IMG/VR virus record: IMGVR_UViG_3300033141_001870
Coordinates: 1 to 43,551 of that record
From: a virus
DNA length: 43,551 nt
Direction: 5' to 3' (one strand)
Shown here one piece after another: positions 21,646-43,279 of this stretch (position 1 is the stretch's first letter; every line of letters starts with the position of its first letter). The notes under the pieces were generated by a model that was given only the letters and a program-made list of their open reading frames with translations, had not been told where the DNA came from and did no database searches. The translations under genes were made by a program, and so were the position numbers.

Positions 21646-21706
21646 ATGGAGCACAGTCGCCCCCGACTGTGTTCCTTTCCCCCAGCCGAGGGCGGCTGGG
21701 CTCCAT
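21646..21706. repeat. Double-hairpin palindromic element, copy 1
   Basis: The outer stem is ATGGAGC (21646-21652) with GCTCCAT (21700-21706). Inside are two hairpins: CACAGTCG/CGACTGTG (21652-21671, loop CCCC) and CCCAGCCG/CGGCTGGG (21681-21700, loop AGGG), together a three-way or cruciform shape. Copies recur at 31201-31257 and, inverted, at 41804-41861. This copy lies between the decoration and capsid genes; 21707-21780 holds nothing else recognisable apart from the capsid ribosome site. Confidence 0.9.
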
Positions 21707-21780: not shown

Positions 21781-22728
21781 ATGCCCACGGCTAAGGATGT
21801 CCATGTCAACGCAGCGTTGTCCAATTTCGCTGTCAAGAAAGGCGTCGGCGGCGGTTTCGTCGCGGACGAGCTGTTCCCGGTCGTCCCTGTCAAGAAAAAC
21901 TCGGACGAGTACTACGTGTATGCGCAGGACGAGATGGACGACGACGTCGAGACCGCCGTCTCCGAGCGCGAGCTGGCGAACGAAATCGACTGGTCGACCT
22001 CGACGGCGGAGTATCTCCTCGTCAAGCACAAGCTCCGGCACTTCGTGTCGGACGACGTGATGGCCAACGCGGACAAGCCGCTGCGTCCGAAGATGCGAGC
22101 GACCGAGCTGCTCGTCCGCCGGCTCAGGATGGGCGTCGAGAAGCGTGTCCGCGATCTCGTGGTGGACACCACCACGATCACCAACGCCACGCCCGCCGTC
22201 AAATGGGACGCTGGGGCCGCGGTCGTGATCGAGAAAAACATCGACGACGCCAAAGAGGCCTTCGCGGTCGCGGCGGGCGTCGAGCCCAACATCATCGTGA
22301 TCCCGCCCGCGGTCGCGAAGGTGATGAAGCGCGACAGCACCGTCCGCGAGCTGATCAAGTATACGCAGAGCAACCTGCTCGTGAACGGTGACCTGCCCCC
22401 GACGGTGTTCAATCTCCGGGTCGTCATCCCCGGCGCGCTCGCCAACTCCGCCAACGCCGGCCTCACGCAGAACGTGGCGCGGCTGTGGTCGGATGACAAG
22501 GTCATCCTGGCCTACGTCGAGCCAAACCCAGGCACGGAGGCCATGACCGCTGGCGTGCAGGTCCGCAAGACCCACGGCCAGACCGCCAAGGGCGTGCAGA
22601 TGACCATCCCGGTCAAAGAGTATCGCGTGCCCGGGCTCGACGGCGTGTTCGTCGAGGCAGGCTTCAAGGTCGACGAGGTCGTCGTGTGCAGCGATGCCCT
22701 CTACATCCTCAACGATGTGCTCACCTAA
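21781..22728 (+). CDS. Major capsid protein
   Basis: 315 aa; start at 21781 behind AGGAGC. The sequence has an HK97-type look: an early acidic stretch (DEYYVYAQDEMDDDV), then the long spine-helix region RATELLVRRLRMGVEKRVRDLVVD, a beta core (NIIVIPPAVAKVMKRDS) and the C-terminal LYILNDVLT. It follows the decoration gene and precedes a strong hairpin, as expected for a heavily expressed structural gene. Mu gpT is the functional equivalent. Confidence 0.87.
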   Translation: MPTAKDVHVNAALSNFAVKKGVGGGFVADELFPVVPVKKNSDEYYVYAQDEMDDDVETAVSERELANEIDWSTSTAEYLLVKHKLRHFVSDDVMANADKPLRPKMRATELLVRRLRMGVEKRVRDLVVDTTTITNATPAVKWDAGAAVVIEKNIDDAKEAFAVAAGVEPNIIVIPPAVAKVMKRDSTVRELIKYTQSNLLVNGDLPPTVFNLRVVIPGALANSANAGLTQNVARLWSDDKVILAYVEPNPGTEAMTAGVQVRKTHGQTAKGVQMTIPVKEYRVPGLDGVFVEAGFKVDEVVVCSDALYILNDVLT

Positions 22729-22781: not shown

Positions 22782-22787
22782 GCTTAT

Positions 22788-22858
22788 AGCAGGGTAGAGT
22801 AACGGTCACTCAGCGGCTTCATGAGCCGCCCAAGCGGGTTCGACTCCCGCCCCTGCCA
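22788..22858 (+). tRNA. tRNA with CAU anticodon (Met or Ile2)
   Basis: The cloverleaf folds with acceptor AGCAGGG/CCCTGCC, D arm GAGT/ACTC, anticodon stem GCGGC/GCCGC with loop TTCATGA (anticodon CAT), four-base variable loop, and T arm GCGGG/CCCGC with TTCGACT; discriminator A858, no encoded CCA. The first pair is an A-C mismatch. The anticodon stem lacks the three G-C pairs of initiator tRNA, so it is probably an elongator Met or a lysidine-modified Ile2 tRNA. tRNA genes are uncommon in Mu-like phages. Confidence 0.85.
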
Positions 22859-22893
22859 AGTAGTCGGCAACCCCAACTGACCGGAAGTGCAGC

Positions 22894-31200: not shown

Positions 31201-31257
31201 ATGGAGCACAGTCGCCCCCGACTGTGTTTTCCCCAGCCGAGGGCGGCTGGGCTCCAT
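31201..31257. repeat. Double-hairpin palindromic element, copy 2
   Basis: ATGGAGC (31201-31207) and GCTCCAT (31251-31257) enclose CACAGTCG/CGACTGTG (31207-31226) and CCCAGCCG/CGGCTGGG (31232-31251). It is nearly identical to copy 1 but with a shorter linker between hairpins (TTTTC in place of TTCCTTTCC). It fills most of the gap between the methyltransferase and tape measure genes, and the tape measure ribosome site follows within ten bases. Confidence 0.9.
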
Positions 31258-31267
31258 CGAGGAAATC

Positions 31268-34153
31268 ATGGCCGACAAAACCACAATCATCATCGAAGGC
31301 AAGGACAAGGCCTCGGCGGTCTTCAAGAAGATCGCCCAGGCATACGCGTCCATGGAGTCGAAGGTCTCCAAGAGCAGTATGGCTGGCGCGGGCATGATGG
31401 GCGCGGTCATGGGCCTGCCCGGGATGATCCTTGGCGTGATGGGCACGTCGCTCAAGATCGTCACCGGCGGCATGAGCGCTATCCTCAACGTCGCCACCAA
31501 GACCATCGGCCTCGTGGTCGGCGTGGTGCGCGGTGCGGCGAGTGCCGTGCTGGCCGTCGTGTCTGGCGTCGTGCGCACGATCACGTCGATCGTCGGCGCG
31601 CTTGTGGGGGTTGCCACGCGCATCGCGGGAGTGATCGTGGGCATCGTGGCCAAGGCGACGCTCGCGGTCGGCGCGGCCGCGGCCGCGATGTTCGCGGCCA
31701 TCGTCTACCAGGGCGTCAAGTTCGAGCGGCAGATGGCGGAGGTATGGACGCTCGTCTCCGAGCAGGGGCAGGGCGAGTTCGCCAAGCTCAAGAGCGGCGT
31801 GATCTCGATCTTCCGCGACCTGCCCACGAGCTTGACCGGCCTGACCAGGGGACTCTACGACACGATCAGCGCCGGCATCACCAACGCCGACGACGCGCTC
31901 ACCGTGATGCGCGAGGTGAGCAAGGCGGCCATCGCTGGCGTGTCCGACGCCGGCACGATGGGCAGCGCCTTCATGACCGTGATGCAGGGCTTCAAGATCC
32001 ACGCGTCGAAGGCCAAGGACATCTCCGACGCCTTCTTCGCCACGATCAAGCAGGGCCGCCTCGTGGCCAACGACCTCGCCCAGGGGCTCGGGTTCGTCGC
32101 GGGCATGGCCGGCAACATGGGCATCAAGTATCGCGAGGCGCTCGCTGCCATCGCGGTGGCCACCCGCACGTTGCGACCCGAGATGGCCTTCGTCGGCATG
32201 GCGCAGTTCCTCCAGGCGCTCATCAAGCCCGCGGACGCCGCGGCCAAGGCCATCGAGCGCATGGGCCTGCGCTTCTGGAAGGTCGGCAAGAACGGCAAGA
32301 AGACGTTCGTCGGCTTGAAGAACGCCATCGATCAGATCATCAAGCTCAAGCTCGACCCCACCCAGGTCGCGGAGCTGTTCCCCGAGGCACGCGCCCAGCG
32401 CTTCGTGCTCGCGCTCATGGCGCAGCGCAAGGAATACAACCAGATCTTCGCGGACGTGAAGGGCGCGTCGGGCACCGCGAAGACCGCGTTCGACATCATC
32501 GCCAACACCGCGGGCGCCCAGATGCAGCTCGCGTGGAACAAGGTGCGTGCGGGCGGCCTGAGCGTATGGGAGGAGATCAAGAAGGCCGCGCTGCCCACGC
32601 TCAAGCTGATGAACGAGAGCATCGACAGGATCAGCGACGCGCTCGACGACGCGCTCGCCAGCAAGGCGTGGAAGGACTTCTCCGCGTCGGCGCAGACCTT
32701 CCTCGAGGGCGCGGCCAACGACGTGGTGCTGTGGCTCATGGATCTGCCCGGCCACATCGACACGGCCACCACGAAGCTCGCCGAGTGGACCAAGCCCGTG
32801 CGCGAGGCGGTTGACTACCTAAGCCGCATCGACCTCACCGCGACCGCGGCGAAATACGGCACGGCATGGGCCACCGCGCAGAAGAGCATCAGCGAGGGCG
32901 CGCAGCGCGTGCGCGACTGGCTCATCGACACCGCGGCCGCCGCGGCCAAGGCCATGCTCGGCATCGGCGTCTCGTTACTCATGGGCTTCCAAGAATCCCT
33001 GCCTCAGATCAACTCCATCCTCGCGGGCATCGCCGACCAGATCAACACCGTCGCTGCGTCGCTGCAGTGGGTGCTGTCGGCGGGGATCGGCGCGGAGATC
33101 GGGCATCAGAAGAACATCCAGCGAGACCAGATGGGCAAGGCCGATGCTGCCGAGAAGGGCAGCCCCGAATGGAAGGCCGCGTATAAGGCGTGGCGAGAGG
33201 CCGCACAGCGAGAGAAGGAGCTGACCGAGCAGCGCAAGAGGCTCGTCGAGGGCGGCGACATTATCGACTTCAAGCCCATCGACGTCACGGTCATCCCCCT
33301 CGCCCGCAAACTCAACGAACTCAAGAAGGGCGTCGACCAGAACGCCGCGGACCTCAAGAAGGGCAAGCTCCCCGAAGCGGTCGACGACCTCGCCAAGAAG
33401 ATCAAGGACGCGGCGAACAAGATCGCGCCGGTCATGCGGCCTCCCGCGGAAGCACCACCCGCCGCGCAGCCCGCCGCACCACCCGCGGATGATGCCCCCG
33501 CGGAGAAGCCCAAGCGCAAGCGCCGTCGCACGATCGCCGACGTCCTGCGCGACCGCAAGCGTGCCCGCATCGCCAAGCGCAAGGCGGAGCGCGAGGGCGG
33601 AGCGGGTCCCGAGCCCGCGATCGATGGCGGCGATGCTACCGAAGACCAGGGGGGAGCCCCTGCCGCTCAGCCACAACGCCGCAACCCTGCTCGCGATATC
33701 TTCACGGGCCGCGGTCGCAGGCGTCGACGCAAGCGCCGCCGACGCGACCCCCTCCGCTATGCGCGGAAGCGCCGCGGTGGCGCCGAGCGCGAGCCAGTCG
33801 AGTGGGAGGAGGTCAATGACCCCGAGACCGCGGCACGCGTGCGCGGTGAGATGGAAGAGCGCATGGGCGGCGGCGCCAAAGAACTCGCGCAGGACAAGGG
33901 CGCTGAGATGCAGCGCGCCACCGACGAGCGCCAGGCCGCGGCCGCGGAGAAGGCCGCCGCTATGGAGGAGTCCGTCGCGGCGGCGCAGGAGGAGGCCGCG
34001 ACCAACATGGAGCGCATGGCCGACGCCGCGGAGAAGAATGCCGAGCAAACCGAGAAGTTAGCCGCCACCGCCAAAGACCGCCTCGCGACCATCGAGGCGG
34101 CCTTGGCCAACGCCGAGTCGCAGATCGCTGCGCTCGCACAGCCGGGAGGCTAA
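31268..34153 (+). CDS. Tape measure protein
   Basis: 961 aa; start at 31268 behind GAGGAAA. The N-terminus has an alanine/glycine/valine-rich hydrophobic region, about residues 40-170 (for example GVIVGIVAKATLAVGAAAAA), then QMAEVWTLVSEQGQ and the TP901-type core with TRGLYDTISAGITNADDAL, LAQGLGFVAGMAGNMGIKYRE and AQRFVLALMAQRKEYN. A lysine/arginine-rich part near 780-870 and an alanine/glutamate coiled coil to 961 follow. It sets tail length and enters the host membrane. It is separated from the tail tube by the sugar cassette. Confidence 0.9.
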   Translation: MADKTTIIIEGKDKASAVFKKIAQAYASMESKVSKSSMAGAGMMGAVMGLPGMILGVMGTSLKIVTGGMSAILNVATKTIGLVVGVVRGAASAVLAVVSGVVRTITSIVGALVGVATRIAGVIVGIVAKATLAVGAAAAAMFAAIVYQGVKFERQMAEVWTLVSEQGQGEFAKLKSGVISIFRDLPTSLTGLTRGLYDTISAGITNADDALTVMREVSKAAIAGVSDAGTMGSAFMTVMQGFKIHASKAKDISDAFFATIKQGRLVANDLAQGLGFVAGMAGNMGIKYREALAAIAVATRTLRPEMAFVGMAQFLQALIKPADAAAKAIERMGLRFWKVGKNGKKTFVGLKNAIDQIIKLKLDPTQVAELFPEARAQRFVLALMAQRKEYNQIFADVKGASGTAKTAFDIIANTAGAQMQLAWNKVRAGGLSVWEEIKKAALPTLKLMNESIDRISDALDDALASKAWKDFSASAQTFLEGAANDVVLWLMDLPGHIDTATTKLAEWTKPVREAVDYLSRIDLTATAAKYGTAWATAQKSISEGAQRVRDWLIDTAAAAAKAMLGIGVSLLMGFQESLPQINSILAGIADQINTVAASLQWVLSAGIGAEIGHQKNIQRDQMGKADAAEKGSPEWKAAYKAWREAAQREKELTEQRKRLVEGGDIIDFKPIDVTVIPLARKLNELKKGVDQNAADLKKGKLPEAVDDLAKKIKDAANKIAPVMRPPAEAPPAAQPAAPPADDAPAEKPKRKRRRTIADVLRDRKRARIAKRKAEREGGAGPEPAIDGGDATEDQGGAPAAQPQRRNPARDIFTGRGRRRRRKRRRRDPLRYARKRRGGAEREPVEWEEVNDPETAARVRGEMEERMGGGAKELAQDKGAEMQRATDERQAAAAEKAAAMEESVAAAQEEAATNMERMADAAEKNAEQTEKLAATAKDRLATIEAALANAESQIAALAQPGG

Positions 34154-35121: not shown

Positions 35122-39386
<4,265 letters not shown>

Positions 39387-40190: not shown

Positions 40191-40644
40191 GCTCATGGCC
40201 GCGTTCGTGGCCACGTTGCCGCCGCCGCCCCTGCGCATCATCGACGTCGGCGCACAGAACGTCAACGGCGTCTACCGCGATCTGTTCGCCGGCTACGACT
40301 ACGTGGGGGCGGACATCTGCGCCGGCCGCAACGTGGATGTGGTCATGCACAGCCCCTACGACTGGCGTGTGGGCGCCGATTGGGACGTGGCGATCTCTGG
40401 CCAGTGCGTCGAGCACGTGCCCGACGTGGCCGCGTGGGCTCGCGAGTTCGGCGCCCTGTTGAGGCCAGGGGGATGGGCCTGCATTATCGCCCCGTGGAGG
40501 TGGGGCGAGCACCGTTACCCCGTCGATTGCTGGCGCGTCATGCCCGATGGCATGGCATGGATCATGGAGACGGCTGGACTGATCGCTGTCAAGACGCGTA
40601 TGGATCAAAACGACTGTATAGGCACCGCAAGGAGGTCATCGTGA
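40171..40644 (+). CDS. Class I SAM methyltransferase, small
   Basis: 157 aa from a TTG at 40171 with AGGAG eight bases upstream; this start gives MHPNSRKLM, a common opening of this methyltransferase group, while ATG 40195 is the alternative. The SAM region is LRIIDVGAQNVNGVYRDLF, then YVGADICAGRNVDVV and AISGQCVEHVPDVAAW, followed by RPGGWACIIAPW. The canonical glycine-rich loop is modified (DVGAQN). It probably acts on a sugar or lipid-linked intermediate in the second cassette. Confidence 0.75.
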   Translation: MHPNSRKLMAAFVATLPPPPLRIIDVGAQNVNGVYRDLFAGYDYVGADICAGRNVDVVMHSPYDWRVGADWDVAISGQCVEHVPDVAAWAREFGALLRPGGWACIIAPWRWGEHRYPVDCWRVMPDGMAWIMETAGLIAVKTRMDQNDCIGTARRSS

Positions 40645-42011
40645 GAATCTGCTTCATCAACCCGCCACGGCCGTGGCTCGTCAACCCCCACGCGCAAGCG
40701 CCCATCGGCATCCTCTACCTCGCTGCCGCGCTCGAGCGCGCCGGGCATGACGTGCGCATCGTCAACTGCGCTGGGCATCAGCAGGCCAGGCAACTCAACG
40801 TGGCCGATGTCTACTGCATCACCGGCACGTGGCTCGACGTGCCCCAGGTGAATGAGATCGCCGAGTTCCTGAAGGGCACGTTCGGTCGCTGCCGCATCCT
40901 CGTCGGCGGCCCCATCGCACTCTCGCCCGACGAGCTGAGCGACGATATCGACGTGATCGTGAGGGGAGAGGCCGAGGCGGACATCCTGTCCATTGTGGAC
41001 ATGGAGTCCATCCCATGCAGCGGCCTCTACACCTGCGAGCCCCCCGACGACCTCGACGCGCTCCCATTCCCGGCCCGCCACCTCTGGGCGGGGCCGTTTG
41101 GCGGGAACGTGTTCATCGGCGGCGAGAACTATTTCGGCGGCGGCTCGACCACCATCCTCAGCTCGCGGGGCTGCCCCTACGACTGCGCATTCTGCGCGTC
41201 GAGCGCGCTCGCGCCGCGCAAGGTGCGGTTCCGCTCGGCCGAGAGCGTGGTCGAGGAGATGGAGCAGTGCGTCGTCGACTTCGGCGTGCGCCAGTTCCGC
41301 TTCTCCGACGAGAACTTCAACGCATGCCTCCATCGTGTCGAGGCGCTGTGCGATGCGATCATGTCCAGCAAGATCCTCGGCCACGGCGACGGCGTGGCCT
41401 GGCGAGCGTCCATCGCGGTGCGGCCGATCAACGTTGGGACGTTCGACTACATGGCCGACGCCGGCTGCAAGGAGGTCTCCATCGGCGTCGAGTCGGCCGA
41501 CTCCGCGGTGCTCGAACTGATCTGCCCGGCCAAGCTCAAGAGCCCCAACGGCGCGGTCAAAGCGCTCGCCATGGCCACGAGCGCCGGCCTCAAGACCCGT
41601 GCCCTGATGATGGTCGGCACGCCCGGCGAGAACGCGGACACGGCCCGCCTCAACATCGACTTCATGCATGACATCTGTAACACGCTGCCAGGCCCCTGGT
41701 CAACAGAGCGTGCCCTCTGCGACGCGCTCGCGGTGACCGTCTTCACCCCCATGCCTGGCAGCGACATCTACAACCATCCCGAGCGCTACGGCTGTCGCAT
41801 CCGTGGAGCCCAGCCGCCCTCGGCTGGGGAAGCGGACACAGTCGGGGGCGACTGTGCTCCACGCCGCTCCGTTTGCCTCTACGGCCCCGACGGCGCGCAC
41901 GCGCTCGAGCCCACCATCGAACTCGACGACTTCCCCCTCGACGCCCTCCGCCAGTCCATGCGCACCCAAGTCGCCGCGGCCGAGGCCACCGGCAAGATCG
42001 GGAGAGGCTGA
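40641..42011 (+). CDS. B12-binding-type radical SAM enzyme
   Basis: 456 aa; GTG at 40641 behind AAGGAGG. Residues 1-120 form a Rossmann-like B12-binding region (APIGILYLAAALERAGHDVRIV, later RILVGGPIALSPDEL, IVRGEAEADIL). The radical SAM cluster is SSRGCPYDCAFCASS, with C178, C182 and C185. Then come FSDENFNACLHRVEALCDAI and CKEVSIGVESADSAVLELI, the typical barrel stretches. Residues 388-407 derive from palindromic element copy 3. Such enzymes methylate or rearrange sugars, lipids and cofactors; the substrate here is not evident. Confidence 0.85.
   Translation: MRICFINPPRPWLVNPHAQAPIGILYLAAALERAGHDVRIVNCAGHQQARQLNVADVYCITGTWLDVPQVNEIAEFLKGTFGRCRILVGGPIALSPDELSDDIDVIVRGEAEADILSIVDMESIPCSGLYTCEPPDDLDALPFPARHLWAGPFGGNVFIGGENYFGGGSTTILSSRGCPYDCAFCASSALAPRKVRFRSAESVVEEMEQCVVDFGVRQFRFSDENFNACLHRVEALCDAIMSSKILGHGDGVAWRASIAVRPINVGTFDYMADAGCKEVSIGVESADSAVLELICPAKLKSPNGAVKALAMATSAGLKTRALMMVGTPGENADTARLNIDFMHDICNTLPGPWSTERALCDALAVTVFTPMPGSDIYNHPERYGCRIRGAQPPSAGEADTVGGDCAPRRSVCLYGPDGAHALEPTIELDDFPLDALRQSMRTQVAAAEATGKIGRG
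41804..41861. repeat. Double-hairpin palindromic element, copy 3, inside the radical SAM gene
   Basis: Inverted relative to copies 1 and 2: TGGAGC (41804-41809) and GCTCCA (41856-41861) enclose CCCAGCCG/CGGCTGGG (41809-41828) and CACAGTCG/CGACTGTG (41837-41856). It stays in frame, encoding GAQPPSAGEADTVGGDCAPR, between the YGCRIR and SVCLYGPDG parts of the host protein. Confidence 0.9.
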
Positions 42012-43279
42012 TGCCCAACGCCCCCAAGCCCACCTGGCAATCCCCATGCGGCCGCGCAACGCTCTACCACGGCGACTGCCTGGAGATCATGCCCAGCCTC
42101 CCAGAGGCGAGCGCCGATGCGGTCGTCACCGACCCGCCGTATGGGCTGGGCTTCATGGGCGCGGCGTGGGACCACAGCGTGCCGGGCGTGCCGTTCTGGG
42201 AGGCGGCGTTGCGCGTAGCCAAGCCGGGCGCGCACCTACTCGCGTTCGGCGGCACGCGGACGTTCCATCGCCTGGCCGTGGCCATCGAGGACGCGGGCTG
42301 GGAGTTGCGGGACTGCGTGATGTGGGTCTACGGCACGGGCTTCCCGAAGAGCCACGACGTGAGCAAGGCGATTGACAAGGCCGCGGGCGCGGAGCGGGAG
42401 CAGTGGCAGGGCTGGGGCACCGCGCTCAAGCCGGCATGGGAGCCCATCATCGTGGCCCGCAAGCCGCTCGACGGCACGGTCGCGGCCAACGTGCTCGCAC
42501 ACGGCACGGGCGGCATCAACGTGGACGCGTGCAGGGTGGAGGTGGACGCAGCGGATGCAAAGGCCTGGTCGGGCCGAGCGCAAGCGCCTTCGAGTGTGGG
42601 CATGAAGAACATATCCAGTGAGGTTTATGGTGAGGGCTTCAAGCGCAACTATGCTGGCCCCGAGCGCGGCCGCTGGCCTGCGAATCTGATCCACGACGGC
42701 AGCGACGAGGTCGTGGGGCTGTTTCCGAAGCAGAAGTCGCCAGGCAACTACAAATCAAAGACAACAAGCGTTCCAGGGCAGAACGGGACGATGGGCAAAT
42801 GGCCCACGAAAAAGGAGCGCCATTATGGTCATGGCGACTCCGGCTCCGCGGCCCGCTTCTTCTACTGCGCCAAGGCGAGCAAGGCTGACCGCGACGAGGG
42901 ATGCGAGGGGTTGGAGGAGCATAATTCTCAACGACTTCGGCTTCCTGCACAAGAGTCCATAGATCACGATGGTAGGCCCCATCAGACAAGTGGTGCAGAG
43001 CGATACCGACCCCGCCGCAACACCCATCCCACCGTCAAGCCCACCGCGCTCATGCGCTACCTCTGCCGGCTCGTCACGCCGCCAGGGGGCCTGATCCTCG
43101 ATCCGTTCATGGGCTCGAGCTCGACCGGCAAGGGCGCGGGCCTCGAGGGATTCCGTTTCGTCGGCATCGAACTCGACCCCGAGGACAAGGGCTTCCTCGA
43201 CATCGCCCGCGCCCGCATCACCCACGCCATCGCCCAGCGCACCGCCGACATGCCCGTATCCCAGGAGGCCTCAGGATGA
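42011..43279 (+). CDS. DNA methyltransferase, DPPY-type (N6-adenine/N4-cytosine)
   Basis: 422 aa; ATG at 42011 overlapping the radical SAM stop. The catalytic DPPY is at residues 41-44 (VVTDPPYGLGFMG) near the N-terminus and the SAM motif lies at the C-terminus (ILDPFMGSSSTGKGA), the beta-class order. NTHPTVKPTALMRYLCRL is the typical N4/N6 methylase helix. The middle (about residues 195-335) is a long recognition insert of lower GC. It may protect phage DNA at the right end, complementing the Dam-like enzyme. Target unknown. Confidence 0.88.
   Translation: MPNAPKPTWQSPCGRATLYHGDCLEIMPSLPEASADAVVTDPPYGLGFMGAAWDHSVPGVPFWEAALRVAKPGAHLLAFGGTRTFHRLAVAIEDAGWELRDCVMWVYGTGFPKSHDVSKAIDKAAGAEREQWQGWGTALKPAWEPIIVARKPLDGTVAANVLAHGTGGINVDACRVEVDAADAKAWSGRAQAPSSVGMKNISSEVYGEGFKRNYAGPERGRWPANLIHDGSDEVVGLFPKQKSPGNYKSKTTSVPGQNGTMGKWPTKKERHYGHGDSGSAARFFYCAKASKADRDEGCEGLEEHNSQRLRLPAQESIDHDGRPHQTSGAERYRPRRNTHPTVKPTALMRYLCRLVTPPGGLILDPFMGSSSTGKGAGLEGFRFVGIELDPEDKGFLDIARARITHAIAQRTADMPVSQEASG

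Follow-up and report, generated by a model that had tools for sequence, protein, structure and literature searches.

A palindrome in frame within a radical SAM gene of a phage contig

The window analysed here (IMG/VR record IMGVR_UViG_3300033141_001870, 43,551 nt) comprises all of contig 72 in a 4.24-Mb metagenome-assembled genome (MAG) of 362 contigs. It carries genes for a gpA-type terminase, a Mu-type portal, a major head protein and a tape measure protein, and therefore represents a tailed phage or prophage. Despite a GC content equal to that of the MAG (0.65), its tetranucleotide usage is only a moderate fit (correlation 0.60, versus 0.77-0.87 for the MAG's own contigs), making the MAG no more than a candidate for the natural host of the phage. 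The only Rfam match in the window is a tRNA-Met (CAT) gene at 22787-22859, just downstream of the major capsid gene, and a long ORF at 35122-38370 with many 18-nt-periodic repeats probably encodes a tail fibre protein. The features under study are listed by position, strand and basis of assignment.

21646..21706, minus strand: copy 1 of the element, intergenic, between a gene ending about 21642 and the major capsid gene (arm patterns)
21781..22728, plus strand: major capsid protein gene, PHROG 1005, phage context (PHROG match)
31201..31257, minus strand: copy 2, intergenic, 10 bp upstream of the ATG of the tape measure gene (arm patterns)
31268..34153, plus strand: tape measure protein gene, phage context (domain and PHROG matches)
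40641..42011, plus strand: gene for a B12-binding radical SAM protein, 456 aa, host of copy 3 (ORF, Pfam)
41803..41862, plus strand: copy 3, REP doublet of 60 bp, in frame in the radical SAM gene, 20 codons RGAQPPSAGEADTVGGDCAP (arm patterns, fold, ORF position)
41805..41828, plus strand: REP unit A, GGAG-CCCAGCCG-CCCT-CGGCTGGG (sequence)
41829..41836, plus strand: variable linker GAAGCGGA; copy 1 has GGAAAGGAA and copy 2 GAAAA, read in one orientation (sequence)
41837..41860, minus strand: REP unit B, inverted, GGAG-CACAGTCG-CCCC-CGACTGTG (sequence)
42011..43279, plus strand: DNA methylase gene, downstream of the radical SAM gene and overlapping it at ATGA (ORF, domain match)

The radical SAM ORF matches the Pfam families Radical_SAM (1.4e-18) and B12-binding (5.6e-10). 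Codons 388-407 are formed by an imperfect palindrome, GTGGAG...CTCCAC, which leaves the frame open and confirms what the initial annotation had noted in this gene. Folded as RNA, the strand of copy 3 reaches -46.3 kcal/mol, compared with -32.4 for shuffled sequences (z = -4.7). Both arm patterns also match at 21646-21706 and 31201-31257, where the expectation from shuffles is 0.

The element had further been described as readable without a stop in at least this orientation, and all six frames are open in all three copies. This was rejected as proof of adaptation to coding DNA, since all six frames are likewise open in 12% of random 60-mers at the window's 65% GC and in 15% of shuffles.

The palindrome is an inverted doublet of REP-type units

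Each copy consists of two inverted 24-nt units, made up of GGAG and an 8-bp hairpin with the loop CCCT or CCCC, joined by a linker of 5-9 nt. Units of one type have the same sequence in all three copies, and all six units carry the GGAG tag, while the linkers differ in both length and sequence; the CGTC tag of the Rickettsia conorii RPE group is absent. Copies 1 and 2 are intergenic and lie in the orientation opposite to copy 3. A tetranucleotide followed by a short hairpin, in two units inverted to one another so that the ends stay constant and the middle varies (3/3 copies), is the plan of a REPIN (PMC3116915). No direct target-site duplication, as looked for in a MITE, was visible by eye at the flanks of the three copies.

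Copy 3 as a probable insertion in the host protein

The best homologs of the radical SAM protein are IMG/VR phage proteins, 30-36% identical; an IMG/VR search with a single peptide query for the protein returned nothing. Measured from the Gly of a 'PGS' motif to residue 425, a nearly invariant Thr, the stretch counts 52 residues in the window protein, or 32 without the element's 20 codons. The same spacing is 26-47 in 12 IMG/VR phage homologs and 29-42 in 29 homologs from the phylum. None of the aligned homologs carries the peptide at that site, and the window protein is a length outlier among them, except for the distant protein of Streptomyces phage SF3, which has 57 residues in a poorly aligned stretch. 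Because SF3 reaches 57, length alone is no proof of insertion. The stronger argument comes from the DNA, in which the arms are exactly identical to those of the two intergenic copies.

That identity also bears on the idea that the peptide is a native protein loop matching the repeat by chance, or an assembly artefact. SF3 and one IMG/VR homolog are also long in the PGS-to-Thr stretch, as a native loop would allow; with a shuffle expectation of 0 for the arm matches and the peptide in no homolog, however, we consider this highly improbable. A search for the empty site in a close phage relative found no such sequence. In an AlphaFold model (13 sequences), the insert falls within a stretch of pLDDT<50 (389-448) with a C-terminal helix after it. 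The model fits a tolerated loop and is no proof of one, as its low confidence extends past the insert to residue 448 and says little on the insert itself. Another ~13 residues of the radical SAM protein (TLPGPWSTERALC, window 41681-41730) are also additional in comparison with its homologs and are not a copy of the element.

Occurrence of the unit across bacterial phyla

The unit was found in 106 stretches of MAGs labelled Planctomycetota, Acidobacteria, Chloroflexota and Deltaproteobacteria. One strict pattern counts 8 to 173 copies in most carrier genomes; the MAG of the window has 3, all on the phage contig. A looser pattern, allowing up to 2 mismatches, located 27 unit places in genome G053 of the window's own phylum. 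The rest of the 4.24-Mb MAG yielded no further copy by the pattern used, and neither a Y1 transposase nor a REP-associated tyrosine transposase (RAYT).

With its 8-bp stem and 4-nt loop, the unit hairpin has the form of a REP, a hairpin of 20-40 nt with a conserved stem. The outer stem pair, which the search left unconstrained, is A-T in 167/234 units and G-C in 49/234 (216/234 compensatory), and the inner stem variants CAGGCG/CGCCTG and CAGTCG/CGACTG also covary. The covariation of outer and inner pairs therefore indicates that the hairpin itself is conserved. Among the same 234 units, a set collected with a GGAG pattern, the tag is GGAG in 163, GGGG in 52, GTGG in 11 and GTAG in 3.

Outside this phage, the units in the genomes and viruses searched are single or in direct tandem, with no inverted heteromeric doublet. 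The inverted doublet was absent from the window's own phylum, from 392 genomes of the phylum of G302 and from IMG/VR. Neither a search of IMG/VR for the exact unit nor blastn with the element against phages and plasmids returned a match. Nine loci of the planctomycete MAG PLA4 (L024, L027, L028, L039, L040, L107, L114, L125, L126) contain direct tandem arrays of the same hairpin unit with a period of 27 or 30 nt.

Association of the unit family with RAYTs

Y1 transposases chosen by PF01797 alone had no flanking unit, with one exception in PLA4 where a unit lies ~1 kb away. The link to RAYTs emerged only with the in-frame RAYT of locus L026 as the query, after unit-spanning ORFs had been sorted for real genes. 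RAYTs with REP units of the family on both sides were then found in four carrier genomes (L026, L089, L277, L278), two of which are acidobacterial MAGs with RAYTs related to the query (L277, L278). At L280, the search motif picks out a unit on one side of the RAYT, and inspection by eye one on each side. These RAYT-flanking units carry GTAG, GTGG or GGAG, and at the 3' end of the L026 RAYT lie CAGCCG-CCCT and CAGTCG-CCCC, the same two unit types as in the window doublet. Matches to NCBIfam NF047646 ('REP-associated tyrosine transposase') support the identity of the enzymes. The association with a RAYT that marks REPs is thus found at the level of the family, with no RAYT in the window or its MAG. 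A second REP-like family (GTGGCACGGGCTTGCAGCCCGTG) adjoins a RAYT embedded in an isoleucyl-tRNA synthetase (IleRS) gene (L267) and occurs elsewhere in PLA4 (L110).

Inverted repeats occur near gene starts in some mycobacteriophages, and the hairpins could in the same way be phage-encoded regulatory elements before late genes (a terminator, an RNA-processing site or a start-associated element), with copy 3 as a by-product. Two of the three copies precede the capsid and tape measure genes, and the hairpins are very stable. The unit is nevertheless scattered through the genomes of bacteria from several phyla, where it flanks RAYTs, phages with related capsid genes have no hairpin in front of the capsid gene, and copy 3 is intragenic; we therefore judge such a regulatory role unlikely.

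A probable REPIN-like miniature mobile element

The reading that we prefer, at a probability of roughly 0.8, is that the element is a REPIN-like miniature mobile element of which three copies entered the phage, one being tolerated in frame in the radical SAM gene. The insertion itself is argued from the identical 24-nt arms with differing linkers, the outlying length among homologs and the lack of a hairpin before related capsid genes. A RAYT-linked REP family is argued from the occurrence of the unit in several phyla, the stem covariation and the flanked RAYTs at L026, L089, L277 and L278. Weighing against this reading are the lack of a RAYT and of further copies in the MAG, the non-canonical GGAG tag, the restriction of the inverted doublet to this phage among the genomes and viruses searched, the unsuccessful search for an empty site and the absence of a visible target-site duplication. 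Two inverted GNNG-tagged REP units would have been moved as single-stranded DNA by a RAYT, an HUH/Y1 enzyme of the IS200/IS605 type. The three copies would have entered the tailed phage genome, probably in a host that carried the REP family and its RAYT and was not the binned MAG. Two would have landed between genes and the third in a variable loop near the C-terminus of the radical SAM protein, where 20 codons added with no stop or frameshift could be tolerated. From these sequence comparisons we infer the RAYT-driven movement of the doublet, the donor host and a modified radical SAM protein that still works.

REPINs are two inverted REPs with conserved arms and a variable spacer, which can fold as one long hairpin or two (Bertels and Rainey 2011, PMC3116915). 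The phage element shares all of these features, but is ~60 bp long with a 5-9 nt linker and two unit types per doublet, and it differs in its setting: a phage, 3 copies, one inside a gene, and a MAG without a RAYT. Intragenic REPs have been described, over half of which are dimers or groups of repeats that encode 20-30 residues, and GTAG-tagged REPs have been recorded from both Planctomycetes and Chloroflexi (Di Nocera et al. 2013, PMC3733652). The window units resemble the latter in their 8-bp hairpin and 5' tetranucleotide and in forming an in-ORF dimer that encodes 20 aa; the tag of their family, however, is mostly GGAG or GGGG, with GTGG and GTAG in the minority, whereas GTAG/GTGG is canonical. 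REPs have also been described as species-specific (PMC6006769), in contrast to the one near-identical unit common to several phyla and its phage host seen here.

Units and whole RAYTs in frame inside genes

In-gene units were counted where convincing domain matches flank or span them; the many unit-spanning ORFs of other genomes with no Pfam match were not counted as genes. By this measure, units lie in frame in genes for a UbiD-type decarboxylase (L115), a dihydroorotase (L017), ArgS (L055), an SBP_bac_5 protein (L093) and a TPP enzyme (L023).

Whole RAYTs occupy similar positions. The RarA gene of a Phycisphaerae MAG (L026) is interrupted in frame, first by a unit, then by a complete RAYT (MPDHVHM; VAYLCANPVRKGL) and inverted units, and RarA continues behind them. 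In PLA4 (L089), the glycine dehydrogenase gene (GcvP) holds, between units, a RAYT 72% identical to that of L026. NCBIfam matches in PLA4 show the RAYTs between parts of IleRS (L267) and of GcvP (L089), the IleRS match reaching profile position 592 before the RAYT and resuming at 593 after it. A sample of 392 genomes from the phylum of G300 gave 64 RAYT matches, 15 of them in frames of >500 residues (1/15 with two stops). NCBIfam places a RAYT between parts of ValRS (two genomes, same site), LeuRS and PurH; it splits AlaRS in two genomes at one site, directly before CGGTHV, and a bifunctional salicylyl-CoA hydroxylase/oxidoreductase. The loci are as follows.

L318, L319, L320, L322, L326, L327, L330, in Planctomycetota MAGs: whole RAYTs inside ValRS (two), LeuRS, AlaRS (two), the salicylyl-CoA enzyme and PurH

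Most of the gene-embedded RAYTs are flanked by short hairpins, which belong to several REP families. In the two genomes with an interrupted valS and the one with an interrupted ileS, no other copy of the respective gene scores above the family cut-off; the genomes are mostly MAGs and may be incomplete.

The in-frame units bear on the comparison with the Rickettsia palindromic elements drawn in the initial annotation, and on a stronger form of it in which the phage element would belong to an RPE-type family spreading through coding DNA via a tolerated peptide. The in-frame insertion, the six open frames in 3/3 copies and the in-frame units in real genes of other phyla would suit such a family. 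R. conorii RPEs, however, carry a CGTC tag, and the CGTC superfamily has no dedicated transposase (PMC3733652), whereas the units here have a GNNG tag (GGAG in the window) and are linked to RAYTs; moreover, 2/3 window copies are intergenic and composition explains the open frames in 12-15% of cases. We consider membership in an RPE-type family quite unlikely. The likeness holds for behaviour, that is, a dispersed palindromic insert tolerated in frame in a protein, and not for membership, which the sequences place with the REP/REPIN type. The suggested adaptation to coding DNA is plausible only at the family level, given the in-frame units and whole in-frame RAYTs in other genes.

RAYTs are widely viewed as single domesticated genes, with their REPs between genes. 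The RAYTs at L026, L089, L277 and L278 lie between inverted REPs as in a REPtron (RAYT, or TnpA-REP; PMC6006769, PMC8266576), but several Planctomycetota MAGs differ in having a whole RAYT in frame inside a housekeeping protein. The literature searched contained no description of whole RAYTs in frame inside RarA, GcvP, IleRS, ValRS, LeuRS, AlaRS or PurH, and in one survey unexpectedly long proteins were set aside as fusions or annotation errors (PMC6006769). We tentatively suggest, as a possibility somewhat short of even odds, that RAYTs and REPs are mobile DNA persisting in frame in essential genes, intein-like with no recognised splicing domain. Units and REP-RAYT-REP cassettes may both be translated as domains inserted into proteins that still function (aminoacyl-tRNA synthetases, GcvP, RarA, PurH), and the phage doublet may be the miniature form.

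The RAYT-linked REP doublet is a known kind of element, and REP dimers within genes were reported before (Di Nocera 2013, PMC3733652); the phage setting, the phylum breadth of the unit and the tag variants are new, and the RAYTs embedded in core genes are the larger lead. If the reading is true, phage-borne, in-frame REPs shared across phyla, together with RAYTs in apparently sole valS and ileS, would mean that these elements move and that coding DNA can be a safe place for them. How REPs spread between species would then become testable, with phages as a candidate vehicle.

Further RAYTs lie in long open frames, some of them unassigned, at L321, L323, L324, L325, L328, L329 and L331, including methyltransferase-like, DinG/YoaA-like and LpxC-FabZ-like frames.
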